64,000 nucleotides of DNA from Candidatus Kapaibacterium sp. (GCA_025059875.1 JANXCT010000002.1:403180-467179); one strand, 5' to 3'. Positions 66-21,997 are shown, numbered from the stretch's first letter. The notes: generated by a model from the sequence alone, not told the origin. A program made the numbers and translations.

Positions 66-122
66 TGGGTTGTCTGTCTACAGTAAGTGCGACTGCGCTG
101 TCTCACACCGAATGAGCTACGG

Positions 123-488
123 ATGCGCACCCTGAGTCTTGGAGCTATGACAGCTTTCCTGTTATGCCTGAGCGTCTCTCACCTCGTTGCTCACGACGGC
201 TGCGCCCAACAGGCCAAAGCTTCCTGCTGTCGAGCAAAAGCCACAAAACAAGTCGAGCAGCAAGAAGCGACGCCAGAACGGGCTGCAGTGCCAACAACGG
301 TTGCTGACCGAGAGCAAGGGACAGCGGACAAAGAGGGATGTTGTCGCAAAAGTTCATCTGCAGCAAAAACGGCAGCAAAGTTTGATTCCTGCCATGACGA
401 CGAAGCAACTCAGGCCCAGGATGGCTGCTGCAGCACCCGATCTACAACGGAAGAAGGCCCTTCCTCCAGCGAGGAAGCCCCACAGTAA
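123..488 (+). CDS. small secreted cysteine-rich protein, function unknown
   Basis: A protein of about 121 residues with a clear signal peptide (MRTLSLGAMTAFLLCLS, ending near HLVAHDG). The mature part is hydrophilic, rich in Ala, Gln, Glu, Lys and Ser, and carries three adjacent cysteine pairs (ASCC, EGCC, DGCC) plus single cysteines, spaced roughly evenly. An in-frame ATG at 87 would add 12 residues, but the start at 123 gives a proper signal peptide. It stops 28 bases before the GldM-like gene on the same strand and is probably cotranscribed with it. I do not recognise a family. Paired cysteines suggest disulfides or metal binding in the periplasm, but that is inference. The composition is unlike ordinary globular proteins, so a spurious ORF is possible; the promoter and signal peptide argue against that. 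Confidence 0.55.
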   Translation: MRTLSLGAMTAFLLCLSVSHLVAHDGCAQQAKASCCRAKATKQVEQQEATPERAAVPTTVADREQGTADKEGCCRKSSSAAKTAAKFDSCHDDEATQAQDGCCSTRSTTEEGPSSSEEAPQ

Positions 489-516
489 CACGGTTGGACC
501 GTTCTAAGGAGCTCTC

Positions 517-2709
517 ATGGCGCGTGGTGGTGGTGCCGGCAAAGTCTACTTCGTGCTCTACTTAGCCGTAGTCCTGGAGCTACTCCTCATCATCGTGGAG
601 CGGGATGAAGCTGAGGAGCACCTGCTGAAGAAGCAGAAGGAGTCCATGAGAATTGTACAGAGCATCCTGTCACAGCTCCAGGTCGGGACAGGGACGGAAG
701 GCATCAGCACACGTCCAAAGGACGAGATTACGATTGCCGAAAGTTATCTCCAGGCAGCAGGAGGTCCACAGATTCGCCAGGACCGCTACTACGAGGTTGA
801 GGTCGGGGTCACCGACATCAGTGGCATGGGAGCAACCGAAGGCATGGAGCCAGCGGAGGCGAAGAAGCGACTGGAAACTCTGATGCGCTTAGCAAATGTC
901 CAGGAGCTCGACTACCAAATCTTCTACCATCCTAGTCCTAATCCCCAACAGCCACCCTCATTCCCTCCCGATGATACCCTTCGTCGCCTCCGCTGGGAGA
1001 CCTTCGTGGAAGGTCAGCCGATTGGTCCAGAGGTGGAAGGTTCTCCATGGCGGCTACTCGTGATGAGACGCCTGGAGCTAGACCTATCCGCTATGCGCGA
1101 CTATCAAACGCCTATCTACAAAGCTTACACCATCGCCATCGGGGATATCCGGCGCTTTGCTCCACCAGATGCGGTTGCCAAAGACAGTATCTACTGGTAC
1201 GACCACAAGCGAACGCTGGAGCGCGCCCAGCAGAACGGTGGACGTATCAAGAAGCGTGTCTTTGCTGTTCGGTTCCAACCACCCGCGCAACCTGGTTGGT
1301 ACAAACTCCGCTTCGCCTCCCGGACGAACCGTATCCTCGGTATCCAGGCCGAGCAGCCGCTGGAGCTTGGCGGCGAGGAGACCGTCAACATTGGCACAGT
1401 ACAGATCAAAGTCAAAGACCTACAGCTCGTCAAACGCGAGTTGGAGTATGAGCTAGATGCTTATAATCCGCCGTTAGCCGATGACCTCATCAGCGGACGC
1501 ATAGATGCTGAAGGATTCCTCAATGGCCTTGCGGCCTCGATAGAGTACGTACGCCGCGAGTTTCCAGAGAAAGCCCCTGAAATCGCCAACAAGTTGGAGC
1601 TCTATGGGTACATTGCACGGCTGCTCGCCCCAGGGCAATCCGCCGGCTTCGAACAGAATCGGTCCAGCATTGCGATCGATATCCGTGTCATCAAGCCTGC
1701 CGTTCCACCACCAGCAGATCCCAAGGTCTTCTTGACTCAGGAGGAGTTCTACTCGTTCGACAAAGCCCAGCGCACCGTTATTCCCTTTACAGCAGGCCCC
1801 ATAAACCCCGGAGGTAGACCACCGACAGTTACGATCCAACCGCCCCTCTCCTTCCGACTCGTAGACCTGGGACCTGAGTTGGTCGCAGGAGGTCCTACCG
1901 CTGGGGGTGGAACGAACCATAAGTTTGAGCTCCAAATCAACGAGCCAATAGCAAGCGGAGAGTACACCATCCGGATTACCCACACGAACATAGCAGGGAA
2001 GCAAACGACTTCAGAAGCTCGCTTGGTTGTCTTTCCAAGCCGCCTCAACAATGCCCAGGACATAGACGCTGCCCTCCAGAACAACCTCTTCTATGGCTAC
2101 ACTTTTCAGGTCACTGCTGATCCTAGCTCAGGTGGGAAGATCCCAGCAGCCCAGTTCCGCACGAGCATTCAACTCGGAGCTGACCAGCAACCTGCCGCTC
2201 CAGGATTGCAGGCTGAACGAGACATTCCTGCAGTTGCAACGACAGTCAACGTGCGGGTCACGTGGCAAAATCCATATACTGGCGAAGTCGTAACCCTCTA
2301 CGAAGGGAGTGGGACTCCACAGCAGCGAGCTCCACGCTTCTCAGTTAGCGACCTGAAGATTGACCCTACGATTGACCCACGCAATCCGGAGCTCCTCGTT
2401 ACCGGCATCACAATCCTGCCACCTTTCGTAGACATCCAGCGGCTGGCAACTCCGGAGGATATCCGAGACGTTCGGGTCCAGATTACGCGGGCCGACATCC
2501 CTAATTACAAGCCTTCGGCCACGATTAACCGCGTGGGGGCCAATACTTATGAGGTACGGATCCGTTTGGACGGTCCACTTCCCCTACGCCGAGGCCGAGT
2601 AGATGGGACAGTCTCGCTCCTGGTCACCGCAAAGGTCCGGAACCCCATCAATGGAGCTGAATCCCGTGAAGGACGCGTAGCTATCCCGAATATCCCGATC
2701 GCGTATTGA
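517..2709 (+). CDS. GldM-like single-pass inner-membrane protein with periplasmic beta domains
   Basis: 730 residues. A short cytoplasmic N-terminus (MARGGGAGK) is followed by one hydrophobic helix at about residues 10-28 that contains a buried Glu (VVLELLLIIVE), then a charged coiled segment to about residue 55. The rest is periplasmic and beta-rich, with Ig-like stretches in the last 350 residues. This is the architecture of GldM/PorM, the T9SS subunit whose helix packs inside the GldL ring and whose periplasmic domains reach the outer membrane. It is longer than typical GldM (about 510-530 residues) and primary sequence similarity is not obvious to me, so the assignment rests on architecture and context: two barrel proteins and a VWA-OmpA protein follow at 34, 15 and 69 bases. 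An AAGGAG Shine-Dalgarno sits upstream. Alternative: an unrelated anchored adhesin-like periplasmic protein. Confidence 0.6.
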   Translation: MARGGGAGKVYFVLYLAVVLELLLIIVERDEAEEHLLKKQKESMRIVQSILSQLQVGTGTEGISTRPKDEITIAESYLQAAGGPQIRQDRYYEVEVGVTDISGMGATEGMEPAEAKKRLETLMRLANVQELDYQIFYHPSPNPQQPPSFPPDDTLRRLRWETFVEGQPIGPEVEGSPWRLLVMRRLELDLSAMRDYQTPIYKAYTIAIGDIRRFAPPDAVAKDSIYWYDHKRTLERAQQNGGRIKKRVFAVRFQPPAQPGWYKLRFASRTNRILGIQAEQPLELGGEETVNIGTVQIKVKDLQLVKRELEYELDAYNPPLADDLISGRIDAEGFLNGLAASIEYVRREFPEKAPEIANKLELYGYIARLLAPGQSAGFEQNRSSIAIDIRVIKPAVPPPADPKVFLTQEEFYSFDKAQRTVIPFTAGPINPGGRPPTVTIQPPLSFRLVDLGPELVAGGPTAGGGTNHKFELQINEPIASGEYTIRITHTNIAGKQTTSEARLVVFPSRLNNAQDIDAALQNNLFYGYTFQVTADPSSGGKIPAAQFRTSIQLGADQQPAAPGLQAERDIPAVATTVNVRVTWQNPYTGEVVTLYEGSGTPQQRAPRFSVSDLKIDPTIDPRNPELLVTGITILPPFVDIQRLATPEDIRDVRVQITRADIPNYKPSATINRVGANTYEVRIRLDGPLPLRRGRVDGTVSLLVTAKVRNPINGAESREGRVAIPNIPIAY

Positions 2710-2743
2710 TTGATCACATGTCAGAATACGAGTGCTGATAGCG

Positions 2744-4411
2744 ATGCAACGAATAGCCCAGAAACTGCTTGTAGCAACTAGCTTTTATCTCTTCCTCTCC
2801 TGGGGAGTGGGGACCTATGCGCAGGATGCTGAACTTCGGGCCATCCTGCGCAAGTTTAAAAACTACCGCTACAGCACCATTTCCCTCTTCCGCTTAGAGG
2901 GACAGGTCTTTTCCGACGTCCAGGAGCTGCTCAACCCAATGCCGAAGGCTCCCCAAGTTGTAGCTAATCTCCAGTCTACGAATCCCTCCCTCTACCAGCA
3001 AATTCAAGACCGAGTGATGCTAGAGGGGTGTGCGGCTGAAGTCCAAGAGGTCTTACGGAAGCTACGTGAAGAAGATGGAGTTCCCCCAGGCATAGTAAAC
3101 CGTGCAGAGACGATTGAGGCCGTCAAGTATGCCGTTCAAGTGATGCAGAACAACTGTAATGCCTTCAAGAGTGCTTTCGTCGTCACCACCCGCTTCCGCC
3201 CAGGGGAACCTTTCAGCATTATTGCTCTCATCAAGACCCGTGATCGCTCACGCACTATCGCCCGCGATCTCCGAAGCATCCAGGACGCCGATATTCTACT
3301 GTTCTCCGACCTGCGTCGGATCGCTGCACCTCCTACATCACCATCACCGACACTGTACGACTACCTAGCCAATGCCATTATCCAGGGCGCCGTAGAAAAT
3401 GTCACCCTAGAAGCTCAGGGTATCGGTGACGAAACAACCCAGTTTGCTCCCCCGACGTTTGGTAATGCCGAGCCTGTTCCGGAAGACGATATCCAAACCT
3501 ACCTGCGAATCTCAGAAGGCCAGCCCTCAGCTTACAGCCATCCTAATGAACTGACTATGAGCTTTCCTGACCTCCTCCGCTACCGGTACTACGCTGTCCG
3601 AGCTGAAGAGGTGGGAACAGCCGAAAGTACTGAGGATACCGTCCGGATCTACAATCTCCATCTGCCCCACTTAGGAGTCGAGTTTCGACACGGATTAGAA
3701 GAGCTTAACTACCCGTCAGTATGGTCCCAACGAGTAACTCTCAATGCCCTTTGGAGCAGTGCTCGACTAGGGGTCATCCTACCAATGAAGGGATGGGGTG
3801 AGCTCTCCTCTAAGATCGGCCCTAAACCTCGCTTGACTCACGCCGGTTGGGGCCTCTATGGAACGGTGGATTTCCCAATCAAGCTCCTCTACGATGGCGG
3901 AGTCTTCCACGCCTCTGCCTCGTATGTCTTCGGGGATGCCAAAGCATCAGGTCGGCCTATTTGGAATCCCGAGCTCCAGAGAACCTCGGACTTCTTGATC
4001 CGCTACCATGTTCAGCTCCAGTATTCCTTTGCGATTGCCGTAGACAAAAATTACTTCTTCCGCTTCCGGCTAGGGGGAACTGTCTATGGGGCAGAGACTT
4101 GGGTGGAGCGCGAGGACACAACAGAAGATCGGGAGATTATCCGCCGCTTCCGAAGGGCAAGCAACGAGACGATTGGCGGTATCAGCGGCGGGGTTGATTT
4201 CCTTTCCACCGGAATCCAGACTCCGTATGGCTTTGCTCTCAATTACTTCGACGGGACACTCCTTGGTACCTTGTGGCTGCAAATCCCCGTTACCCGAGGC
4301 CTGTCGCTGCGCTTTGACGGGCGTGTCTTCACATGCCTCCTGCGCGATCCTCGGCTTTGGGAAGAGCGAGTCCTCTTCTTCCCTTCTGCACGTGTCGTGT
4401 TGAACTTCTGA
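2744..4411 (+). CDS. outer-membrane beta-barrel protein with N-terminal periplasmic domain (first of two)
   Basis: About 555 residues. ATG 2744 is preferred over GTG 2732 because it gives a compact signal peptide (MQRIAQKLLVATSFYLFLSW, cleavage near TYAQD). Residues 25-270 are largely helical and polar and probably periplasmic. From about 290 onward the sequence alternates hydrophobic and polar residues with many aromatics, typical of beta strands, and it ends in a hydrophobic strand closing with VVLNF, a usual outer-membrane-protein C-terminus. The next gene has the same plan, so the two may be distant paralogues. In T9SS the barrel PorP/SprF sits beside the GldM/PorM complex, so a related role is possible, but no family was recognised. 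It lies 34 bases after the GldM-like gene. Confidence 0.6.
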   Translation: MQRIAQKLLVATSFYLFLSWGVGTYAQDAELRAILRKFKNYRYSTISLFRLEGQVFSDVQELLNPMPKAPQVVANLQSTNPSLYQQIQDRVMLEGCAAEVQEVLRKLREEDGVPPGIVNRAETIEAVKYAVQVMQNNCNAFKSAFVVTTRFRPGEPFSIIALIKTRDRSRTIARDLRSIQDADILLFSDLRRIAAPPTSPSPTLYDYLANAIIQGAVENVTLEAQGIGDETTQFAPPTFGNAEPVPEDDIQTYLRISEGQPSAYSHPNELTMSFPDLLRYRYYAVRAEEVGTAESTEDTVRIYNLHLPHLGVEFRHGLEELNYPSVWSQRVTLNALWSSARLGVILPMKGWGELSSKIGPKPRLTHAGWGLYGTVDFPIKLLYDGGVFHASASYVFGDAKASGRPIWNPELQRTSDFLIRYHVQLQYSFAIAVDKNYFFRFRLGGTVYGAETWVEREDTTEDREIIRRFRRASNETIGGISGGVDFLSTGIQTPYGFALNYFDGTLLGTLWLQIPVTRGLSLRFDGRVFTCLLRDPRLWEERVLFFPSARVVLNF

Positions 4412-4426
4412 GCTGACCTAGCGACT

Positions 4427-5839
4427 ATGTATCGACTACTCTTGCTCGCTTCCGGACTCGTCGCTTCAGTAGCAATAGCACAACAGTCCACCACGCCCGC
4501 TGCCTCTAGTCCAGCACCGAACTACGACACTGCACTTGCGGCCCTGAAGACAATTGACCCCAATATCCTCCGCTATTTCCCACGGTGGCGGATCTGCGAG
4601 CCGAACTTGATGATTCAGATCCATCAAACTTTCCTGCTGCTGGGATACCCCGAGGAACAGCTGGACATGCAGCGGATCATCATCACTGCTGCTCCTACTC
4701 TCCGCAGTGGCAACGAGGAGTTTGAGATCCTAGTCATAGAGTGCGGAGCCGCAAAGATGGTCTCCTCGGAAATCGAGGCCAATATGCGGAGCTTAGGCTC
4801 ATTCTTAGCCGATCCACAGCGCCGATACTGCTATGAAGATATTCCGCCTACTGTTCCCCCAACCCCAGCGCAAGCAGAGGCGATCATCAACTTTACTATG
4901 CCTCCAGCAGCAGCACATGCCATCGCTATCTCTGCCTTTGAACAGAGCCTAAAGCTCGGCCGAAGTGGCTTTTGGCTCCGTGCGACATTAGGCGTAGACC
5001 ATATCGGCTACCACTTCTGGTCTGCCGGTATCGCCCACGTCCTACTCCAGCGTCCTCTCATTCGGAACACCGACCTCCAAACGCAGAAGTCTATCCCTCA
5101 TCTACTGGATGTCCAACTTGGTATCGGGTACCGCATCACCGGAGGGTTAGACCCAAACTTCCTTGGAGGCTTCATTCCTACCCGAAAACTCAATACCGAT
5201 GGTGGTGGTCAGCTCCTTGCCGGAGTCGATTTCTATCTCCCCTTCCATCCCGCCGCAGGTACCAGCCTACACCTCGGCCTTCCGCTGCGAGATATCGACC
5301 CGACAGAAACCATCAATCTTAACTCCTACGCTATCCTCCCCGTGGGGGCTAACCGTGAACCGCTGCGGGCTGACGACCCCTCTTGGCACATCGCGACAGA
5401 TAGTGTCGTCCCACTCCTCCGGTCTTACGGCCGATGGACAGTTTTCTACAACTGGTGGCTAACCTCGAGACACCCAGATCACTTCTTCCGCATTGAGTTG
5501 GGTGTTTGCTACGCCGAAATCCAAGAAGCCGCTCTACGGTACAATCCTGATCAGAGCATCTCTTTGGTGCGCGATGGAGTAACAGGGCTCCGGCTCTACA
5601 AACCTCAACAGCTCGGGGATTGGCTCTACGCACGGTTGGAGTACCGCAACCAGAGCAACTTCCCGTTCGGGATTGCCTTGCAGTACTCCAACCAAATCCT
5701 GCTCGGGAGAGCTTACGTACCCATTGTCGGACGCTGGTTGTACGTTGAAGGAAAGTACTCCGCCCCTCTGCGGCCGCTCCGTCCATTCGAGAGGCGTCAC
5801 TTCTTCGTCCTCTCGCCCCTGTTTCGGATCGTAATGTAA
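4427..5839 (+). CDS. outer-membrane beta-barrel protein with N-terminal periplasmic domain (second of two)
   Basis: 470 residues with a signal peptide (MYRLLLLASGLVASVAIAQ). Residues 35-160 form a polar domain of mixed helix and strand; from about 180 to the end the sequence has alternating strands with aromatic girdles and finishes in FFVLSPLFRIVM, a barrel-type terminal strand. Order, size and layout parallel the preceding protein. It begins 15 bases after that gene, so cotranscription is very likely. No catalytic motif is visible. The neighbouring GldM-like and VWA-OmpA proteins suggest a trans-envelope assembly in which this is an outer-membrane part. Function is unknown beyond localisation. 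Confidence 0.6.
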   Translation: MYRLLLLASGLVASVAIAQQSTTPAASSPAPNYDTALAALKTIDPNILRYFPRWRICEPNLMIQIHQTFLLLGYPEEQLDMQRIIITAAPTLRSGNEEFEILVIECGAAKMVSSEIEANMRSLGSFLADPQRRYCYEDIPPTVPPTPAQAEAIINFTMPPAAAHAIAISAFEQSLKLGRSGFWLRATLGVDHIGYHFWSAGIAHVLLQRPLIRNTDLQTQKSIPHLLDVQLGIGYRITGGLDPNFLGGFIPTRKLNTDGGGQLLAGVDFYLPFHPAAGTSLHLGLPLRDIDPTETINLNSYAILPVGANREPLRADDPSWHIATDSVVPLLRSYGRWTVFYNWWLTSRHPDHFFRIELGVCYAEIQEAALRYNPDQSISLVRDGVTGLRLYKPQQLGDWLYARLEYRNQSNFPFGIALQYSNQILLGRAYVPIVGRWLYVEGKYSAPLRPLRPFERRHFFVLSPLFRIVM

Positions 5840-5908
5840 CGAGCTGCCCCCACCACGGCATGGCAGTCTCTCTACTGTGACTGAGCTACAAGACCCTAAG
5901 GGGAGCCA

Positions 5909-7222
5909 ATGAGAGCTGGATATGCAAGCCTCGTGCTTGCCGGTGCCTTGGGCACGCTGATGGCTCTCCCACAGGAACTCCCCGACACTGCTTCCCTCCA
6001 GCGCCGACTCTTAGAACAGGCCCAAATTCAACCTCAGCGCCCAACATTTCAACTCCGGCTACACAACGTGGACATTACGCAGTTCCCGTTGGTCAACTTG
6101 ATTGTCGAAGTTCTTGGAGAAGAACCCGACACCCTGCTACCCGAAGATTTCATCATCGTGGAGAACAACCGAAGCTACCCTGTGCTGGCTACTAGCCGTC
6201 TCTCGCCTCAACGTCGCGTCCCGATAGACTTTGTATTTGTGGTGGATGTCACCGGCACTATGCAGGCTTACATTAAGGGAGTTCGGGATAACATCCTTCG
6301 CTTTACGCAGACGCTACTGTTGCACGGCATTGATTACCGACTAGCGTTGATCTTGTTCTCCGACATTATCGAACAGGTATACCCTTTCACGGAGGATGCC
6401 AAGGAATTCATCGGATGGATCGCCCGCATTTGGGCGAGTGGTGGAATGGATGAGAAGGAAAATGCACTCGAAGCCTTGGCTGAAGCTTCCAGAATGCCCT
6501 TCCGGCCGGCAGCAAATCGAGTAGCGGTTCTCATCACAGATGCCCCTTACCACCAGCAGGGCGAGCGCGGGCACGGACGTACGAACTTCACTACAGAGTC
6601 AATCATTGAACTCCTGCGCAGCCACCAGCTCCGCGTCTTCTGTATCACCCGCCCAGAGCTGAAGGAGTATAGGCAGATTGCTGATGCAACGCGCGGCTCT
6701 GTGTACGATATCCAGCTGCCATTTTCAAGGATCCTAGATCGCTACGCGGCTGAACTGACCAACCTTTGGGTACTGACCTACCGAACGGGTGAAGACATTC
6801 CCCTTGACTCCATACGCGTGGCTATTCTGGACCGCGAACGTCGGCAACTGGTTCGGCAAGTCATCCCAATCGTAGCGATCGGGCGGAAGTTCATTTTAGA
6901 GCACCTCCTCTTTGGGATCAATAGTGCAGAACTCCCCGACACGGTACCCGAGCTAGAGACAATCGCACGTTTCCTCAAACGCCGTCCAGAGGTTGTGATC
7001 CGGATAGAGGGACATACTGACAATCGCGGCAGTCCAGCCCACAACCGCCGTCTATCCCTCCAGCGGGCGGAGAGCGTCCGCCGGTACTTACTCCGACGTG
7101 GAGTGTCGGAACGTCAACTCCTCATTGCAGGATTCGGCTCTACCCGACCCATCGCCGACAACGAGACAGAGTTCGGGCGCAGTCTGAACCGACGCGTGGA
7201 GATCGTCATCGTTCGGAAGTAA
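5909..7222 (+). CDS. secreted VWA-domain protein with C-terminal OmpA peptidoglycan-binding domain
   Basis: 437 residues with an N-terminal signal-like segment. A von Willebrand A domain spans about residues 105-285; its metal site is DVTGT at residues 113-117 (the usual DxSxS with threonines). The last 110 residues are an OmpA-type domain, recognisable from the GHTDNRGS motif near residue 368 and the later LNRRVEIVI. OmpA domains bind peptidoglycan, and VWA domains mediate metal-dependent protein contacts, so this protein probably anchors the neighbouring barrel complex to the wall. In T9SS, PorE is an OmpA-domain protein beside the PorM/PorP machinery, a tempting parallel but inference. Last gene of the run; its end overlaps mreD on the other strand by 17 bases. 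Confidence 0.75.
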   Translation: MRAGYASLVLAGALGTLMALPQELPDTASLQRRLLEQAQIQPQRPTFQLRLHNVDITQFPLVNLIVEVLGEEPDTLLPEDFIIVENNRSYPVLATSRLSPQRRVPIDFVFVVDVTGTMQAYIKGVRDNILRFTQTLLLHGIDYRLALILFSDIIEQVYPFTEDAKEFIGWIARIWASGGMDEKENALEALAEASRMPFRPAANRVAVLITDAPYHQQGERGHGRTNFTTESIIELLRSHQLRVFCITRPELKEYRQIADATRGSVYDIQLPFSRILDRYAAELTNLWVLTYRTGEDIPLDSIRVAILDRERRQLVRQVIPIVAIGRKFILEHLLFGINSAELPDTVPELETIARFLKRRPEVVIRIEGHTDNRGSPAHNRRLSLQRAESVRRYLLRRGVSERQLLIAGFGSTRPIADNETEFGRSLNRRVEIVIVRK

Positions 7223-9590: not shown

Positions 9591-10901
9591 ATGCCACGCG
9601 CACGCCTGCTACGAACACCAACAGCAGCAATCATCACGCTCGGCTGCAGCAAGAATACGGTTGACTCAGAAAGGCTCGCAGCACATCTGCGGGTGCATGG
9701 CGTCCAGCTGACAGAACCAGCTGAGGCTGAGACACTCATCCTCAACACCTGTGGCTTCATAGAAGCCGCGAAGCAGGAGAGCATCGAAGCGATTATGGAA
9801 GCCCTTGAGCTAAAACGCTCTGGGCAAGTTCGCCGAGTCATCGTGTCGGGGTGCCTTTCGGCGCGGTACGCTGAAGTACTCCGTCAGGAGCTCCCCGAGG
9901 TGGATTACTTCTTCGGCACTGAGGCTTACGAACCCATCGTCCGCGCTGTTACGGGCGATTTCCGCTACGAGCTGGTAGGCGAACGGGAAGTCTCCACCCC
10001 CCAGCACTACGCCTACCTCAAAATTGCCGAAGGTTGCGACCATCCCTGTTCCTTCTGCGCCATCCCACTCATACGCGGACGCTACCGATCACGCCCGATA
10101 GAGCTTGTGCTCCAGGAAGCCCAGTGGCTTGTCCAGCGTGGGGCACGTGAGCTTATCTTGATTGCTCAGGACACGACGTACTACGGCGTAGACCTCTACG
10201 GCAAGCGTTGCATCGCAGACTTAGTAGCCGCTCTCAGCAGCCTGGAAGGAGTGGCATGGATACGCTTGCTCTACGCCTATCCCGCTCACTTTCCCGAAGA
10301 GCTCCTCGAGGTCATGGCTGATCATCCCAATGTCTGCCGCTACATAGACCTACCGCTCCAGCACATCTCTACCCCCGTCCTCAGCTCCATGCGACGGGGC
10401 GTGACCCGCCGAAGCATAGAGCGGCTGCTTGAAAGGATCCGCTCTCGACTACCCGGAATTACGTTACGCACCACCTTCATTGTGGGCTATCCGAACGAGA
10501 CAGAGGAGCGGTTCGCTGAGCTTTACGAGTTCGTACGCCAAGCCCGCTTCGAACGGATGGGAGTCTTCCCGTATTCCCACGAAGAAGGAACGGCTGCCTG
10601 GATCCTCGGAGACCCTATCCCGCCTGAAGTCAAACAGGAGCGCCTCCGCGCCCTTATGGAGCTCCAACGGGAAATCTCCCTCGAGCTCAACCGAGCAACG
10701 ATCGGCAAATCGCTCCAAGTTCTCATCGACGAGCAGATTGCCCCGAACGAGTACCGTGGGCGCACCGAGAGAGATGCTCCTGAGATTGACAACGAGGTCT
10801 TCGTCCGCTCAGAACGGCCACTAGAGGTTGGCACGTTCGTCACAGTCTCGATAGAAGATGCCACAGACTACGAGCTTTACGGTGTTGCAGCGGATTGCTG
10901 A
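9591..10901 (+). CDS. rimO: ribosomal protein S12 methylthiotransferase RimO
   Basis: 436 residues with the three-part layout of methylthiotransferases: an N-terminal UPF0004 domain with cluster cysteines (LGCSKN near residue 19, [13 protein letters not shown]), a radical-SAM core with C149, C153 and C156 in the CDHPCSFC motif, and a C-terminal TRAM domain. The motif [11 protein letters not shown] and the RGRYRSRP segment separate RimO from the tRNA enzyme MiaB. RimO converts an aspartate of ribosomal protein S12 to its methylthio form using two SAM molecules. It is divergent from hbd (125 bases between starts), and its end overlaps the GWxTD gene. Confidence 0.93.
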
Positions 10902-12144
10902 AGTGCTCATCCTCCTGTGCGGACTATCCTCCCAAGCCATCGCCCAAGAGATTCGGCCGTTGGTCGACGTACTCTGCTTCGCTGCCGAGAACGCTGATTC
11001 TAACGCCCGCGTAGATGTCTGGACAATCGTCCCATACGCAGCCTTGAGCTTCAGACCGGCCGACACCGCTGGTTTTCGAGCTAGCTACACCCTCGGCGTC
11101 GTGATCTACGACAGCCTACGAGCGATCTCCCGCACCCACCGTTACATCCGGCATGTTACTGCTCCCTCATATGCAGTTGCCCAGGGAGCAACCGCTGGCT
11201 TTGATTACGTTCAGACTGTAGAGCACCTGTCTCCAGGCACGTACACAATTACCGTCGCTGTCACCGACAATGCCACAGAGCAGACATACTCTAGCGTGCG
11301 TCGCTATACAGTCCCGGACTACCGTCTCCCGGAGGTTGCCCTCAGTAGCATCGTGCTAGCAAGCAGCGTCGAGTTCCGGTCAGATCGACCTATTGTAACT
11401 CCCTTCTTCGCTGACAATCTCGCGCAACTGGAAGAACATCCCTTCGCTGTACTGGAAGCCTATGCAAAGGTCCCGCAAAGTAAGCTGACCGTGACGGCTG
11501 AGCTCCTGACGCCTGCAGCAAAGCCCTTAGCGCCACTATACCGACGGGAGCTGGACTCCCTTTGTCAGGGACGAACCCTCCTCGTCCTGCCGCTCAGTCT
11601 TCCAAAGGAACTCCCATCCGGGACCCAGCTCCTTCGAGTCCGAATAGAACGTGACAGTATCCCTCTGGCTCAGAGTGAGCGCTCCGTGAGCTTCCTCTGG
11701 ACGTTCTGGGGAAGGGTGCTCGGTGACTTAGACCAAGCCATCCGCCAGCTCCGGTACGTTGCCACTCAGGAGCAGATGGACAGCATCGCGAGAGCCCCCA
11801 CGCTGAGCGAGAAGCGACGCCGCTTTGAGGCTTTCTGGAGAGCACTGGATCCGACCCCAGAGACGCTCCGGAATGAAGCCTTCGAGGAATACTACGACCG
11901 GATTGCCCAAGCCAATCGCCTCTTCCGGAGCTATACCGAAGGCTGGCTTACCGATCGCGGCATGGTCTACGTGATCTTCGGCCCACCCTTACGTCGTGAC
12001 CAGTTCCAGAGCGATGGCCGCCAGTACGAACGCTGGACTTACACCGACCGCGAGTTCCTCTTCGTGGACTACACTGGCTTTGAAGATTACCGCCTGCTCA
12101 CACCTTTGCCGCCAAACGCGAAGTACCGCTACCGCGGCGGTTAA
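10882..12144 (+). CDS. GWxTD-domain secreted protein
   Basis: About 420 residues from the GTG at 10882, which gives a clean signal peptide (start [20 protein letters not shown]). An ATG at 10858 is also in frame but extends the overlap with rimO from 20 to 44 bases. The middle is beta-rich. The C-terminal 100 residues contain YTEGWLTDRGMVYVIFGPP, the hallmark of the GWxTD domain found in secreted proteins of Bacteroidota, Acidobacteria and related groups; its biochemical role is unknown. Translational coupling to rimO is suggested by the overlap, though the two functions look unrelated. Followed by a 540-base gap. Confidence 0.8.
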   Translation: MLQRIAEVLILLCGLSSQAIAQEIRPLVDVLCFAAENADSNARVDVWTIVPYAALSFRPADTAGFRASYTLGVVIYDSLRAISRTHRYIRHVTAPSYAVAQGATAGFDYVQTVEHLSPGTYTITVAVTDNATEQTYSSVRRYTVPDYRLPEVALSSIVLASSVEFRSDRPIVTPFFADNLAQLEEHPFAVLEAYAKVPQSKLTVTAELLTPAAKPLAPLYRRELDSLCQGRTLLVLPLSLPKELPSGTQLLRVRIERDSIPLAQSERSVSFLWTFWGRVLGDLDQAIRQLRYVATQEQMDSIARAPTLSEKRRRFEAFWRALDPTPETLRNEAFEEYYDRIAQANRLFRSYTEGWLTDRGMVYVIFGPPLRRDQFQSDGRQYERWTYTDREFLFVDYTGFEDYRLLTPLPPNAKYRYRGG

Positions 12145-12882: not shown

Positions 12883-14256
12883 TCAACGAACCAGCAGCAC
12901 TTGCCGCCACGTGCGTGTCCCTGCATGCACGATCAGCCCATACCAGCCAGGAGCGAGCCGAGGACTTGTCCACCTCTGCCCCGATCCTCCCCGCCAGCGG
13001 CAAAGCAGCCGCCCACAGGCATCAACGAGTGCCAGATGAGCAGAACTCCGCACCACGCAGTGCATGCGGTCCATCTCCTGCCAAACGTGGATTGGTGGCT
13101 CCCCACTGCCAGTCGTCCCTATATCCTGCGCCTTGGGAACCAGCTCAACGATCTTATCATCCCCTGGGCGAGGCGTCCCGCGACCATCCCTATTGCTCGT
13201 GCTGAGGAAGACTCGCCCTTGAGGAGTCACCAACACGTCGCGCAAACGCCCTACTCCCAGCGCATATGGGATCACTTCTGTTATGCGCCGGCCGTCGGCA
13301 GAGAGACGAAGCTGGTAGAGGGTGTTTCCCCGTAAGGTCGCCAAGAGCAGGGAATGACGGAACTGTGGCAGATGCGATAGCGCAGAGTCATAGTACGCCA
13401 GCCCACAGGGTGCAACAGTTGGCGTCCAGGCGTATAGTGGCGCCGCAACGTTCGAATCCCGACAGAATTGCTGCTCTGTTGGGGTGTCGCAGTAGCCTTC
13501 AACCGCTGGCCAGCCGTAGTTCCGGCCCGGCTGGAGGAGGTTGATCTCATCATCCGTGCTAGCCCCATGCTCGGAGCAGTAGACGATCCCGCCACGTCCC
13601 AGCGCTAACCCTTGGGAATTCCGTAGCCCCCACGCCCATATTGGGCTGCCGGGCAGAGGATTGTCCGCTGGAATACTGCCATCCCAGCGGATCCTCAGCA
13701 CTTTGCCGCTTAACGAACGGAGGTCCTGCGAGAGCGACGGAATCCCGCCCTCCCCAACCGTCAGCAGCAGTGTCCCATCAGGCAAGTTCAAGAACCGGCA
13801 ACCCGCATGGATATTCCCCACCCGGATTCCGGAAAGAAGAACTTGAGGGGCTGTTAGCGTATCCTCCGTAGCGTCGTAGCGATAGCGGACAATTCGCAAC
13901 TCCACAGTGCTGCCAGTACTCACCGTATACGCTATGGCCACGTATGGAGAGTCCACAAAACGGGGATGGAGCGCCATGCCCAAAAGGCCCGTCTCAGTGT
14001 AGGCATAGAGCCCAGGAATGTCCGTTAGCAAAAGGCGCTGCTCGCCCGTCTCTGGATGAATCCGGCTGATCCGACCCGGGCGTTCCGTACACCACAGCCA
14101 TCCATCAGCTCCCCAGAGCACGGACCAGGGCACCGTAAGTCCTTGCGCCACTACTCGGAGCTCAAACCCCCACTCCTGGGCTTTACAGGATAGCCCTCCC
14201 CAGGCACACCAAGCCAGTAACGTACCGAACAGTGCAAGCACCTGGGACTTAAGCAT
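12883..14256 (-). CDS. secreted PQQ-type glucose/sorbosone dehydrogenase-like protein with T9SS-like tail
   Basis: 457 residues. A signal peptide (MLKSQVLALFGTLLAWCAWG) is followed by a six-bladed beta-propeller of the GSDH/Yli family: PWSVLWGADGWLWCTERPG, GLLGMALHPRF, GEGG, SGKVLRIRWDG and YGWPAVEGYC are typical. Such enzymes oxidise aldose sugars using PQQ outside the cell, though many family members have unknown substrates. The last 60 residues are a separate small beta domain with LALVDACGRLLCRW and APGWYGLIVHAG, matching the T9SS type A sorting-domain pattern, so surface secretion is inferred. Its ATG overlaps the end of thrS by 8 bases. It is the last gene of the minus-strand run that includes the PorU-like gene. 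Confidence 0.82.
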   Translation of the reverse strand: MLKSQVLALFGTLLAWCAWGGLSCKAQEWGFELRVVAQGLTVPWSVLWGADGWLWCTERPGRISRIHPETGEQRLLLTDIPGLYAYTETGLLGMALHPRFVDSPYVAIAYTVSTGSTVELRIVRYRYDATEDTLTAPQVLLSGIRVGNIHAGCRFLNLPDGTLLLTVGEGGIPSLSQDLRSLSGKVLRIRWDGSIPADNPLPGSPIWAWGLRNSQGLALGRGGIVYCSEHGASTDDEINLLQPGRNYGWPAVEGYCDTPTEQQFCRDSNVAAPLYAWTPTVAPCGLAYYDSALSHLPQFRHSLLLATLRGNTLYQLRLSADGRRITEVIPYALGVGRLRDVLVTPQGRVFLSTSNRDGRGTPRPGDDKIVELVPKAQDIGTTGSGEPPIHVWQEMDRMHCVVRSSAHLALVDACGRLLCRWRGGSGQRWTSPRLAPGWYGLIVHAGTRTWRQVLLVR

Positions 14257-16286: not shown

Positions 16287-19200
16287 TTAGGGCACGACGA
16301 CGCAGACCCCACTAATCCCTACGCTCGGCCCCATGTGCTGTGGCCAGAGCCTCCAAAGGTAGACCCCAGGAGCCACCCGAGCCGCCTGTACTGTATTCCC
16401 AGCCCATTTCCACTCGTTCTGTCCCACGACCACCGGGAGCTCTGCAGCGTACACAAGTTCCCCAACGGCGGAGAAGACCTCTGCCACAACTACCCCCTGC
16501 CCCTGCGGACCTTCGTAGAGGAACTGCACCGTGACATCCCTACCCGTGGGCTGCGGATACTGCCGCACAAAGCGGAGCGCTGGACGGTCCACTACCCGCA
16601 GCTCTATAGCGAGGGTATCACGCAATCCAGCAGCATCCTCAGCGATTCCCCATACAAAGACGCGCCCTACCGGCAGCCGCCATGGGACAAAGTGTAGCGC
16701 TGCCCGAACCGTTGGACCCCGCAACCGGACCGGGAGTGAGTCTACCTCCGCTGTCGTGAAGAACCTGTACTCCTGTGCCGTGAGGCTGTCTACTTGTCGT
16801 CCTTCAATCCACAGGCGTGGGAGTTGTGCTCGCGTTAGCGGCTTCGTTCGATCGTTGTCGTGAATAACAAGCCACAGCGTTGGCTGCCGAGATACGGCGG
16901 TGGCGGAATCCAGTGGAATGAAGACTTCGCCATCCTGCCACCACAACGTAAGCTGAGGCGGTATGGTATCCAGCCCAAGCCGATAGCTGGCCTCAGCCGT
17001 GTTGTTGAAGGAGTAGAGTTCGCCTGCTGCTGCCACTGTTGCCCTCAGGTTCCCCTCAGCATACCACCCTACCGTGGGCAGGCGGACGGTAAACTCCAAG
17101 GCCGTGTCCGGCGGGAGTATAGCTGAATGCGTCACAGTGTACTCCCCTTGTCCGGTGTTAGGCCAGACCGTGAAGCGGAAGCGAAGGGACGCAGCCTCAG
17201 CACGGAGAGCCCGATTCCAAACACGGAGCCTCACAGGCAGCGTATCCCCAAGCAGTGCCGTCCCAGGTACCAAAGAAGCCTGCGTCACACCAACCTCCCC
17301 CTGCGGCTCAAACGCCACACTTAGCTCCCGCAGTGTCGGGGTCACAGAATCCACAGCCCGTGCCTCCAGCTTGAGCTGAATGTAGGAGTACGGTTCCGAC
17401 CGGAGGTCTATGGCGGTATCAGCAGGGCCAGTGTAGAGGATATCTGGCTCTCGCTCCTCTGCCTCACGGCGGCCGTAGATGGTCAAGAACCATGCAGAAG
17501 CGGGCGAGAGATAGGACTGGACCTGCTCCCACCGCCGTGCCGGTCCAATCCAAGGTGTCAGCACGTATCCCTCGGAGGCTCTGCGCTCCACGACCGCACT
17601 CAGCATGACGCTATCTCCCCGCCGAAATGCCTCAAAGGGAGACCGACCGCCACGATCTCCAACGAACACGAACGCAATTCCGGTCCGCTGCAAGGAATCC
17701 GCTAATCGAGAACCGTAGCGAGAACGCAGCACCTGGCGTAGGCTGTCCAACCGTGCTGGCGTCCAGCGCCATAGACCATCACCCGAAAGAGCCCATGCCA
17801 CCATCTGTCCGGGGCGGAGGGAGTCTCGTAGCAGGCTCAGGAAGTGCTGGGCATCCTCTTCCTGCCCTGTCCGGCCCGTCCTATAGAAGCGGACCTGAGC
17901 AACCGTATCCCCGAGCGAGAACACCACTACTCCAATTCCCGCCTCCTGCTCCAGCTCCATGACTGTCCTACCGTCAAGGCGCAGCACAGCGCGAGTCCGA
18001 ACGGGATCCGAGATAGCCTCCACTTGCCGCCTCCAGCGCCGGAGCTGAACGACGGACTGCCCATTAGCGCTTACCACCTCCATGTTCTGCAGGACTCCAG
18101 CACTCCAATCCGCACTATCCGACTGGCGCCACTGGACAGCACGAAAGGTCGGCAGCGTATCGGTCCAGAAAGGCACTTCCAGCCACTGCGTCCACAGGGT
18201 GTCTCCCCGTCGCACGGCTCGGATCCGGAAGAGATAACGACGTCCTGGCTGGAGCACGGCTGCCGGCTGCCAGTCTACGCACTCATCACGTAGCAGTAAC
18301 TGCTCCTCCGTTGCTGCCTCTATCCGCTCTCCACCACTCCATAGTTCCGCCTCGTAACGGGAGTCAGCAGCCCTCCCCGAGGGATTCAGCACGCGAAATC
18401 GAACCCGTCCCGCTGTCACATGCCAGAACGGTAACGGCTCCAATGGTACCAGAAGCGGCTCGCGGAGTACGTACTCCAGCACCGCTTCATTGTTCTGCCA
18501 CGTACGCTCTGGCACGAGACTATCCGGGTTGAGCTGTACCCACAACTGATGCCTCCCAGCACTCTGCCACTCCGAAGGGAGCGGAATGTCTACTGTAGTC
18601 TGTCGTCGGACTGGGCTAACCCCAATCCACACTGAATCCCATCCCTGGGGGCTCCGATGTACCAGACGTAGCCGCCACTGGCGCGACGGCACAATCCCTA
18701 AGTTCCCAACAGCTACCCGAACCCACAACGAATCTCCACGAAGCGCCTCCCCCAGCGGACGGCCATCTCCACGGTGGATGAACGGACCGGAGGCGATGAA
18801 GAACTCAGGGACTGTGTCAACAGGGAAGCGGAGCAGCGGATCCCCTAAGAGCGTATGTTGCAGGACCGTTGCTCGGTAAACATCTTGAGCCACAAACCCT
18901 GCTAGCGGTAGCCGCGCTGCAGTGTACGCCACGCCTAAGAGCCGAATTCCCTCTTCCACAAGTGCGCGGAAGAAGTGGTGCTGAACCGTCTTCTCCACAA
19001 TGTCCCATCCAATCCCAGCCATCCCCATCGCTGCCACCATCCCGCCGGGGACGGTGACATACTGTTCGTTGTAAGCACGCACGTAGGGCACCGCGAAGTT
19101 GCCCATCGAGCACGAGAGCGTCATCAGGATGCTGTAGTGCTCCACATTTGTCAGCCGCTGTGGTTCCCAGCCCTGGACCTCCATGTTGGCCTCCGCCCCG

Positions 19201-21947
19201 TGGCCGAAGTAGATCGTCAGCCCCACTCCCTCCTGGAGTACCTGCCGGATTTGCGGTCCGTAACGGCTGCTGCTGGGTTCAGGAGTCTCCTTCTGGACTA
19301 CAGTCGGTTCCATGCCAAGCCAATCCGTGAGCCACTGGTAGTAGGTCTCCATCGTGTTGTTGAAGCCATAGCCGAAGATGAGGAGCGCACGCTTACGCCA
19401 GAGCTCTGCGGCAGCATCCTCCCACGCTGCCAGCTTCCCAAGAACTACCGCTGCCTCAGCACTGTCGGCCGCGGGAATCCGCCCAATGAAGAGCTCGGGC
19501 AGGTAGTCATCGCCCTGCAGGAGGGTATACCAGTAGTCGCTCGGAGGCACTCCATAGGCCGGCACCAAGTTCGGCTTCCGGTGCCCCAGTAGATTCCGGG
19601 CATCCCAACTCGCAGAGCCGAACAGCAACACGAACTGCGGAGCTGGCGACCGCCACCGCTCGTAGGCGTACCGTAGGAAGGCCTTGATTGCATGTGGCGT
19701 CAACCGACCGAAGCCAAATGCAGAGCTGATCTCGACTGTCGTCACGATACGACTCCGTATCCCATGCGTCTGCTGCCGCATCTGGGCCCACTGTCGGGCT
19801 GCTGCCAGGAGCTGGGGCGGAGCGATGATGATAGCGTCCGCTTGCGGTTCTGCTGCAAGGAGAGAAGGCGGTTGCAGACGCTCTACGCCTATCGGCTGCC
19901 AACGTCGCTCATCGGCCACCCACAAGACAGCCGTGTCGCGCCTTGACAAGCTTATCTCAACCCGGTACTGCCCGCTACCCTGCGGAAAGCTCCAGAACAG
20001 ATTCGCCCACTCCCCTTCGGCAGCCGCACGCTCATACAGAGGTAACGTATCGCCGCGGCGGAGTACCCAGACCCATGCTTGGCCTCCCCGTGTCTGCTCG
20101 CCCTGCTGTAGGCCCCACGTCCTAAGTAGTTCCGTCACCGCCGTCGGTAGCGACTCCGTAACAGCCCCGACGACGAACGTCCCTGAAGGTAACTGCACAA
20201 GGAGCCGCTGTAGACTGGCAGCATCCCCTTGAATCCACCGCAACTGCTGCTCGTACTGCGGCGGCTGCCACCAAAGGAGGAGCGTCCCCCGTTCTTCCCT
20301 GCGAACTACCAAGCTGTCCCCTATGAAGAGCTCTGTCAGCGGCTGTCTGCCCGACCGCGCAGCAACACGAACGACCCTCTCGGGAGTTCCCTCCAAAAGG
20401 GCCGCCCGCCAGCGCAGTGTATCAATGGCCATCGCTCGCCGCGTCCGGAAGCCATGGAGAACCAAGCGCGCAGCGGAGTCCGATGTGGTAACCCTGCCAT
20501 GCCACTGGCCACCGTATGCTACAGGTCCGGGACGTAGAATGAGCTCCCATGCATCAATCCCTTGCTCCGCCACGGAGCAGACAGCTACCGTGTCCGCAGG
20601 CAAGGAGCTCACTGCCACCACATTCCAACCCGCTGACCACCGGCTGGGAGGGAGCTTCCATTGCCCATCCATACCACCCCATCCACTCCTCTGGACCGCA
20701 CCGACCGTGTCCCCGTTGAGGAAGACCATCAGCCGATGCTCCGGAGCACAGGTACTCAGGCTGTTGAGAGCATATCCGATGAGTCGGACCGATATCGAGT
20801 CCGTTGCTACCAGTTGAAGCGAATCTCTCCACTTACCCCCAGCTCGCATTGTACTCCAGTACCACCCCTCACCGGGAGCTGTCTCAGTCCAGTTGCGGAA
20901 GAAGCCCACGTTCGCTCCCGAAACGTAGACCCTATCGGATTCCCGCCAGAACCTAGTCGGGAGAATATCAGCCTCAGCCAATGGGGACCCATCCGCCTGT
21001 AATGGGAGGAAGCGCAGGCCACTGCCGCTGTCGCGCAGTACCAGGAAGAACGGCTCTTCGGCAGTGTAGGCATCCAGCCACGTCGTATCGCCAGCTGGAC
21101 GGCGCCCAAAGAACAAGAGGGTGTCTGAGTCATCCAGGCTCCCGTCTCGATCAAGCAAAAGACAAGGGGTGGCCATCCCGCGCCAGAGTAGCTCTAGACG
21201 GGATGTGGAAGTCCCTCTCCACTCCGGCATCACCTCCAAAACCCGGCGGAGCGGTACTACCGCAATGCCGTCGGAGAGCGTGGTCAACTTGACGATCGGG
21301 CGCTCAAACCTAAAAGGCTCCGTTCCTCCATGGAGACCTTCAGTACTACGAAAGCCGAGAGCATGCTCTGGGTTGAGGAGTTGACGTGCCCATTCCCACT
21401 CTCCCGGTGCCCAGGAGCCAATCGAAGCTAGTACCTTCATCGGCTCTGGATACCGTATCCGAAGCCGCAGCGCCGCCCACAGGCTTAGCCGACGTCGGTC
21501 TGCGTCGTACCTCCAAGGACACACCCGAAGCACCGCTACTGGGATGCCACGCCAAATTCCTGCGTATCGTAGCGCCACTCCAGCCTCAGCTGACCGTGCT
21601 TCTGCTGCTGCCGACCCCAGCAATGCTTCACCTACTGTGGCAAGCGCTACATTCTCCCAGTGCCGCTGGTGGACCACTGTGACTTCGACATCGGGGAGCT
21701 GTCCCAGACGAGGAATGGCAAGCCAGAACTGCAAGCACTCGCATGCTGGTGCTGCAGAATCCGGTATGAAGAATGCTCCCCTCTCCGCCAGGAATGCCCC
21801 GTAGCGTCCAGTCGACAACTGACGAATCTCTGCGCGAGGGAGATGGAGCTCTAGCTCTATTCCCGCGGGAGAAAGTTGCCGTTGCACTGCCGCCGATAGC
21901 AGCGCAACACTACTGACGCAGGCCATAAGGACTTGCTTAACTCGCAT
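16287..21947 (-). CDS. porU: giant PorU-like C25 (gingipain-family) protease, T9SS sortase candidate
   Basis: About 1886 residues from ATG 21947, which gives a signal peptide (MRVKQVLMACVSSVALLS); ATG 21980 and TTG 21992 are alternatives. The peptidase C25 domain is roughly residues 700-1050, with the catalytic pair H916 (YFGHGAEANME) and C946 (MTLSCSMGNFA). PorU is the T9SS sortase that removes sorting domains and attaches cargo to anionic LPS at the cell surface. Upstream of the domain are beta-rich stretches; downstream are several Ig/CARDB-like modules (pattern NTAEASYRL and similar) and a terminal beta domain ending in APGVYLWRLWP, a sorting-domain-like tail. Porphyromonas PorU has about 1160 residues, so this one carries some 700 extra. 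The GldL-like gene lies immediately upstream. Alternative: a C25-family cargo protease rather than the sortase itself. Confidence 0.8.
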   Translation of the reverse strand: MRVKQVLMACVSSVALLSAAVQRQLSPAGIELELHLPRAEIRQLSTGRYGAFLAERGAFFIPDSAAPACECLQFWLAIPRLGQLPDVEVTVVHQRHWENVALATVGEALLGSAAAEARSAEAGVALRYAGIWRGIPVAVLRVCPWRYDADRRRLSLWAALRLRIRYPEPMKVLASIGSWAPGEWEWARQLLNPEHALGFRSTEGLHGGTEPFRFERPIVKLTTLSDGIAVVPLRRVLEVMPEWRGTSTSRLELLWRGMATPCLLLDRDGSLDDSDTLLFFGRRPAGDTTWLDAYTAEEPFFLVLRDSGSGLRFLPLQADGSPLAEADILPTRFWRESDRVYVSGANVGFFRNWTETAPGEGWYWSTMRAGGKWRDSLQLVATDSISVRLIGYALNSLSTCAPEHRLMVFLNGDTVGAVQRSGWGGMDGQWKLPPSRWSAGWNVVAVSSLPADTVAVCSVAEQGIDAWELILRPGPVAYGGQWHGRVTTSDSAARLVLHGFRTRRAMAIDTLRWRAALLEGTPERVVRVAARSGRQPLTELFIGDSLVVRREERGTLLLWWQPPQYEQQLRWIQGDAASLQRLLVQLPSGTFVVGAVTESLPTAVTELLRTWGLQQGEQTRGGQAWVWVLRRGDTLPLYERAAAEGEWANLFWSFPQGSGQYRVEISLSRRDTAVLWVADERRWQPIGVERLQPPSLLAAEPQADAIIIAPPQLLAAARQWAQMRQQTHGIRSRIVTTVEISSAFGFGRLTPHAIKAFLRYAYERWRSPAPQFVLLFGSASWDARNLLGHRKPNLVPAYGVPPSDYWYTLLQGDDYLPELFIGRIPAADSAEAAVVLGKLAAWEDAAAELWRKRALLIFGYGFNNTMETYYQWLTDWLGMEPTVVQKETPEPSSSRYGPQIRQVLQEGVGLTIYFGHGAEANMEVQGWEPQRLTNVEHYSILMTLSCSMGNFAVPYVRAYNEQYVTVPGGMVAAMGMAGIGWDIVEKTVQHHFFRALVEEGIRLLGVAYTAARLPLAGFVAQDVYRATVLQHTLLGDPLLRFPVDTVPEFFIASGPFIHRGDGRPLGEALRGDSLWVRVAVGNLGIVPSRQWRLRLVHRSPQGWDSVWIGVSPVRRQTTVDIPLPSEWQSAGRHQLWVQLNPDSLVPERTWQNNEAVLEYVLREPLLVPLEPLPFWHVTAGRVRFRVLNPSGRAADSRYEAELWSGGERIEAATEEQLLLRDECVDWQPAAVLQPGRRYLFRIRAVRRGDTLWTQWLEVPFWTDTLPTFRAVQWRQSDSADWSAGVLQNMEVVSANGQSVVQLRRWRRQVEAISDPVRTRAVLRLDGRTVMELEQEAGIGVVVFSLGDTVAQVRFYRTGRTGQEEDAQHFLSLLRDSLRPGQMVAWALSGDGLWRWTPARLDSLRQVLRSRYGSRLADSLQRTGIAFVFVGDRGGRSPFEAFRRGDSVMLSAVVERRASEGYVLTPWIGPARRWEQVQSYLSPASAWFLTIYGRREAEEREPDILYTGPADTAIDLRSEPYSYIQLKLEARAVDSVTPTLRELSVAFEPQGEVGVTQASLVPGTALLGDTLPVRLRVWNRALRAEAASLRFRFTVWPNTGQGEYTVTHSAILPPDTALEFTVRLPTVGWYAEGNLRATVAAAGELYSFNNTAEASYRLGLDTIPPQLTLWWQDGEVFIPLDSATAVSRQPTLWLVIHDNDRTKPLTRAQLPRLWIEGRQVDSLTAQEYRFFTTAEVDSLPVRLRGPTVRAALHFVPWRLPVGRVFVWGIAEDAAGLRDTLAIELRVVDRPALRFVRQYPQPTGRDVTVQFLYEGPQGQGVVVAEVFSAVGELVYAAELPVVVGQNEWKWAGNTVQAARVAPGVYLWRLWPQHMGPSVGISGVCVVVP

Positions 21948-21952
21948 GCCGA

Positions 21953-21967
21953 GGTGCTGACAGCACC
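21953..21967. repeat. perfect 7-bp inverted repeat at the porU start
   Basis: GGTGCTG-A-CAGCACC, a near-complete palindrome of 15 bases. It lies just upstream of the ATG at 21947 and inside the longer alternative start. As RNA it could fold into a 6-bp hairpin with a 3-base loop between the GldL-like and PorU-like genes, possibly limiting ribosome access. Chance cannot be excluded. Confidence 0.3.
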
Positions 21968-21997
21968 CCCCATTGCCCATAACTACCGACAAAGCAC

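Follow-up and report, generated by a model that had tools for sequence, protein, structure and literature searches.

We consider it likely that the gene cluster described here encodes a divergent GldLM-type rotary motor together with its outer-membrane coupling, and that this module drives a type 9 secretion system (T9SS). In canonical GldLM, GldM consists of a helical first domain and three beta domains, and a 5:2 ring rotates, driven by protons; in Bacteroidia the motor meets an outer-membrane complex of GldK, GldN and PorP-type barrels. The cluster lies at the start of a stretch of 64,000 nucleotides, which we call the window (G000:C2:403180-467179), from a host genome of 1.97 Mb whose nearest named relatives are Candidatus Kapabacteria and HRbin21. 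The window was compared with genomes of the same genus, the same order (Kapabacteria; families f1-f10), the same class and the same phylum; the samples comprised 61 genomes of the order, 148 genomes of the phylum and 24 class members outside the order, and Bacteroidia served as positive controls for searches with canonical GldM, GldN and PorP. Two profiles were central: A1, an alignment of 23 GldM-like sequences, and A3, built from the GldL-like proteins of class members outside the order. Synteny was read from 17 stretches of about 20 kb that carry the main GldM-like copy and represent nine families in addition to that of the window; three further stretches carry f7 paralogues of the GldM-like gene rather than the main copy.

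The cluster comprises five open reading frames, all on the plus strand (87-488, 517-2709, 2732-4411, 4427-5839 and 5909-7222), and the gaps of 28, 22, 15 and 69 bases between them bear out the positions and the close spacing, of 69 bases or less, that an earlier note had read from the sequence. The first encodes a small Cys-rich secreted protein, and the four large genes encode a GldM-like motor shaft protein, two probable outer-membrane beta-barrel proteins (barrels 1 and 2) and a VWA-OmpA protein. When synteny was checked in relatives, as that note had proposed, the four large genes were found in the same order and on one strand across ten families, with the exception of the single f5 stretch, in which no VWA-OmpA gene was found behind barrel 2. 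Such an arrangement is far beyond chance, and the cluster is a real unit. Upstream lie genes that we name, from sequence, spermidine-synthase-like and ribonucleotide-reductase-like, neither of them a T9SS gene, and downstream MreD and MreC lie on the opposite strand; with these neighbours, the unit ends after the VWA-OmpA gene. A scan for promoters and terminators gave chance-level results only. The GldM-like protein and barrel 1, whose genes adjoin, are each present in 60 of the 61 genomes of the order; the one genome that lacks both (G058) does carry SprA, so that an assembly gap and a true loss are both possible. Outside the order, one class member (G179, locus L187) has the GldM-like, barrel 1, barrel 2 and VWA-OmpA genes in the window's order, and in another (G112, locus L189) a single run contains gldL, gldM and the genes of two proteins that match the profiles of barrel 1 and barrel 2, with a CTD-bearing protein encoded nearby. 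Given these arrangements, the module probably predates the order.

The candidate partner of the shaft protein is encoded elsewhere in the window: a GldL-like motor ring protein of 441 aa with four membrane helices (21998-23323, minus strand; match to the class GldL-like profile, E 3.5e-16). Profile A3 matched every one of the 31 order genomes tested, and this protein is its best match in the host genome. Across the phylum, the GldM-like and GldL-like profiles match an identical set of 20 of the 148 genomes, plus one weak match to GldL only, and of the 24 class members outside the order, both proteins occur in eight and neither in 16. The two genes are also paired physically, gldL directly before gldM as in the canonical systems, in class members outside the order and among the f7 paralogues, which have no barrels and have a GldL-like gene directly upstream in all six loci (the three stretches mentioned above and three additional f7 loci). 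When the phylum was searched with A1, the helix motif turned up in eight class members from outside the order; in seven of these, G179 being the exception, the motif opens a protein of about 190-430 residues whose gene comes after a GldL-like gene. Unlike canonical gldL and gldM, the main copies in the host genome are not neighbours but lie some 19 kb from each other on different strands; we therefore infer their pairing from the paralogues and from the other class members.

Several lines of evidence tie this motor to type 9 secretion. A gene for a PorU-like C25 sortase of 1901 aa (16287-21992, minus strand; Peptidase_C25, 1.9e-62) begins six bases behind the GldL-like gene. The only PDB match of its product is PorU (6za2, 5.2e-8), and the nearest NCBIfam models are PorU2 (168 bits against a cut-off of 450) and PorU, both of which it hits far below cut-off. 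This adjacency of GldL-like and PorU-like genes recurs at 19 loci in eight families (f1, f2, f3, f4, f6, f8, f9 and f10; the case at L102 is weak). The T9SS translocon protein SprA (SprA_N, PF14349) scores over the cut-off in 60 of 61 order genomes, and reaches 931 bits against TIGR04189 in the host genome, where there are 14 matches to the cargo domain Por_Secre_tail (PF18962), 4 of them over the cut-off. The host genome thus resembles canonical T9SS hosts in having SprA, a PorU-like sortase and CTD cargo, but differs from them in that no GldN was found: the GldN/PorN model PF19841 exceeds its cut-off in 36 of 148 phylum genomes, all of which lie outside the window's class. Taken together, the system has a T9SS translocon and T9SS cargo, and has neither GldN nor PorP as these are defined by their family models. 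The earlier note had let its reading depend on co-occurrence with T9SS genes in relatives, and such genes do co-occur. Its proposal of a divergent T9SS/gliding module is supported in the first part by the GldL-like partners, the GldL-PorU adjacency, SprA, the CTD cargo and the absence of canonical GldM, GldN and PorP, whereas nothing speaks for gliding.

The alternative that survives best, although we regard it as unlikely, is that the motor, though real, has a different task in the envelope (outer membrane-peptidoglycan tethering, lipid transport or surface motion) and lies near T9SS genes incidentally. Further GldL-like genes of the order stand beside an LptF-like permease (L174) or an AAA ATPase (L098, L110), which indicates that the motor family is not confined to a single role, and the VWA-OmpA protein points to peptidoglycan. 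Against this stand the adjacency of the main GldL-like gene to a PorU-like gene in eight families and the consideration that, because canonical GldM is absent, the near-universal SprA system would be left with no recognizable motor if the GldLM-like motor did not serve it.

The last two of the four helices of the window's GldL-like protein carry the GldL pattern, a Gly/Ala-rich helix followed by a Glu-bearing helix, whereas the two N-terminal helices are extra with respect to GldL. Seven positions are invariant across 21 GldL-like sequences, among them the membrane Glu, residue 333 of the window's protein (22325-22327), which is invariant in 21 of 21. A comparison of the GldL-like profile with canonical GldL aligned both helices, Glu on Glu (P 5e-4), and none of 150 column-shuffled controls reached the score, a control that is lenient because shuffling destroys hydrophobic periodicity. 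The corresponding residue, GldL E49, is strictly conserved, and secretion in F. johnsoniae requires it (PMC8986121). Among curated models, the GldL-like protein has no NCBIfam match and no Pfam match over the cut-off, and a PDB search with the GldL-like domain returned nothing.

The shaft protein (517-2709, plus strand; 730 aa) resembles GldM and PorM in architecture: a single N-terminal membrane helix at residues 10-28 (544-600, plus strand; near-invariant VYFVLYLAVxLELLxIIVE) is followed by a long periplasmic part. Its most conserved portion, near-invariant in the 23 sequences of A1, is this helix with its flanks (residues 5-55) and not the Ig-like domains. It differs from GldM in length (730 aa vs. 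about 515) and in matching no family model: no Pfam or NCBIfam model scored over its cut-off, the canonical GldM model TIGR03517 was found in none of the 61 order genomes (36 of 148 phylum genomes exceed the cut-off as a control), and a PDB profile search with the 23 GldM-like sequences gave nothing useful, with no chain matched. A direct profile comparison with canonical GldM, over the full length and over the N-terminus, was not significant (hhalign, P about 0.01). Since the protein fails the family model, we do not assign it to GldM; it is its context that makes it most likely a T9SS-type motor subunit.

Structure prediction is compatible with a GldM-like fold and does not prove it. The AlphaFold model of the full-length protein was poor (pLDDT 45), because it was built on only five close sequences, but it does show a helix-rich part followed by a strand-rich part; its best PDB match by E-value in Foldseek was PorM (7cmg), followed by GldM 6ey4 in tenth place and PorM 6ey5 in twenty-fourth, all at low TM-scores, a ranking that we take as a hint only. 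The fragment 380-730 was predicted better (pLDDT 77.5) as tandem beta domains, and its Foldseek matches were generic tandem Ig-like proteins, with neither PorM nor GldM among the first 50. The four GldM-like periplasmic domains named in the earlier note are, in the same way, compatible with these models but not proven by them.

These mixed results leave some room for an independently evolved two-part motor that does the same job without being homologous to GldM and GldL, a reading that we hold to be quite improbable. In its favour, neither protein matches a family model, the GldM profile comparison is not significant and the main GldL-like proteins cross the membrane with four helices where GldL has two. 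On the other side, two-helix GldL-like proteins occur elsewhere in the class, the Glu falls at the position of GldL E49 and the full-length model, for all its pLDDT of 45, has PorM as its best structural match. That the cluster is an ordinary set of Ig-like outer-membrane or cell-surface proteins with no motor is very improbable: the best fold matches of the fragment are indeed generic Ig-like surface proteins, but conservation peaks at the membrane helix and its flanks instead of the Ig-like domains, and co-occurrence and operon pairing with the GldL-like protein are strict.

Outer-membrane protein 1 (barrel 1; 2732-4411, plus strand), with an N-terminal periplasmic part, and outer-membrane protein 2 (barrel 2; 4427-5839, plus strand), placed by synteny, are probable beta-barrels, an assignment made because both have signal peptides and, by hydropathy, no other membrane helix, and because every intact copy of barrel 1 ends in an aromatic residue. 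Their C-terminal halves are homologous (hhalign 97.5%, P 8e-12; residues 416-554 vs. 325-469), and it is these, rather than the matching N-terminal periplasmic domains claimed earlier, that relate the two proteins, as their N-terminal domains have no detectable match to each other. Like PorP/SprF, they are predicted outer-membrane barrels encoded beside a motor gene; unlike PorP/SprF, they are mutually homologous, measure 470-560 aa and have large N-terminal parts. Of the 12 order genomes sampled, not one matched the PorP/SprF model PF11751, whose cut-off is exceeded elsewhere in the phylum by 45 genomes, and profile comparisons with PorP and GldN gave short, weak matches only, so that the suggested identity with PorP/SprF finds no support from either approach.

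The last gene (5909-7222, plus strand) encodes a probable peptidoglycan anchor whose OmpA and VWA domains, recognized earlier, are firm (Pfam 6.8e-22 and 1.7e-10); its GHTD...N..LS..R residues are conserved at 90% or more. As in PorE, an OmpA-type peptidoglycan-binding C-terminus stands beside T9SS parts, but a VWA domain replaces the rest of PorE. We rejected an assignment to PorE itself: the model NF052230 scores 56.5 bits against a cut-off of 600 and aligns with the OmpA part only, and the parallel drawn by the earlier note comes down to this common domain.

Cysteines are a further feature of the cluster. The N-terminal part of barrel 2 has three conserved cysteines, C57, C106 and C135; C57 and C135 are either both present or, in 4 of 20 sequences, both missing, whereas C106 is kept in 19 of 20. 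From this pattern C57 and C135 are probably paired with each other, which would leave C106 free. The small Cys-rich protein (123-488, plus strand) has a signal peptide and SCC/GCC motifs and no Pfam match; its frame opens at GTG 87, and ATG 123 (MRTLSLGAMTAF...) is the more likely start. Similar small Cys-rich proteins with signal peptides lie directly upstream of the GldM-like gene in f1, f2, f4, f6, f8, f9 and f10, and none was found there in f3, f5 and f7. In F. johnsoniae, SprF and PorG are disulfide-linked to GldK (PMC12635249). The conserved, probably unpaired Cys of barrel 2 and the Cys-rich secreted protein recall that system, with which no sequence relation was seen, and a comparable disulfide link in this cluster is a guess by analogy.

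We propose that GldL-like subunits (21998-23323) would form a ring around the helices of the shaft protein of 730 residues, five to two by analogy with GldLM; that the shaft would turn as the invariant membrane Glu is protonated; and that the periplasmic domains of the shaft would push on an outer-membrane complex, here most likely the two homologous barrels and the peptidoglycan-binding VWA-OmpA protein. This complex would pass force to the SprA-dependent export of CTD cargo, which the PorU-like sortase would process. What rests on observation is the gene order and its conservation, the pairing with GldL-like genes, the PorU adjacency, the presence of SprA and of cargo, and the lack of canonical GldM, GldN and PorP; in this scheme we infer the stoichiometry, the proton drive, the physical contact between shaft and barrels and the export function. 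A bolder version is possible but doubtful: a second T9SS motor architecture, in which an early-branching or independent GldL/GldM lineage pushes on a barrel pair and a VWA-OmpA anchor instead of a GldK/GldN ring, and in which a disulfide link like that of SprF/PorG and GldK joins the free Cys of the barrel to the Cys-rich secreted protein.

According to reviews, Ignavibacteriota and related groups may have T9SS (PMC11285876), whereas the main survey, which relied on models such as those of GldK/L/M/N, detected it in Bacteroidetes only (PMC4793230); our literature search found no paper that treats GldL, GldM and Ignavibacteria together. If the proposed motor is correct, the gap between reviews and survey is explained by a motor that is present but too divergent for the models. 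It would also suggest that the outer-membrane end of the T9SS machine is replaceable, and would offer a natural comparison for force transmission by GldM. The sequence profiles supplied here could then serve to recognize T9SS in lineages where it has been missed.

Variants of the motor genes were seen in several places. In family f7, a genome may contain as many as six GldM-like matches, several of them as GldL-GldM pairs without barrels (L055, L056, L058, L184, L185 and L186), and these paralogues are an expansion of the motor. Several GldM-like proteins outside the order are short (about 205 residues) and are followed by a separate signal-peptide protein, which may be a split form. At L188 8080-13950 (G167), GldL-like and GldM-like genes and a signal-peptide protein are followed by four proteins in two alternating pairs, whose barrel-like C-termini suggest duplicated barrel pairs; no profile match was obtained for them. 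The host genome has a second GldL/GldM-like pair (L174 1572-3688; G000:C2 about 369571-371687) behind the LptF-like permease, consisting of a 240-aa GldL-like protein and a 466-aa protein that starts EPYFVLYLIALFLLL, and similar pairs occur in other families (L175-L180). In a third GldL-like type, of about 320-345 aa, an AAA-type ATPase follows directly (L098 823-3257, L110 2-2373 and L182 987-4067); it is possibly an ATPase-linked motor variant.

Three observations concern the neighbourhood of the module. In G050 (L039 1617-8552 and 9538-16580), the module is preceded on its own strand, at a distance of about 1 kb, by a SprA gene and so has a T9SS gene as direct neighbour. Within the window, 10858-12144 (plus strand) encodes a GWxTD-domain protein (Pfam 3.4e-22), and 12883-14256 (minus strand) a glucose/sorbosone dehydrogenase-type protein with a C-terminal tail that resembles a T9SS sorting domain, a possible T9SS cargo.
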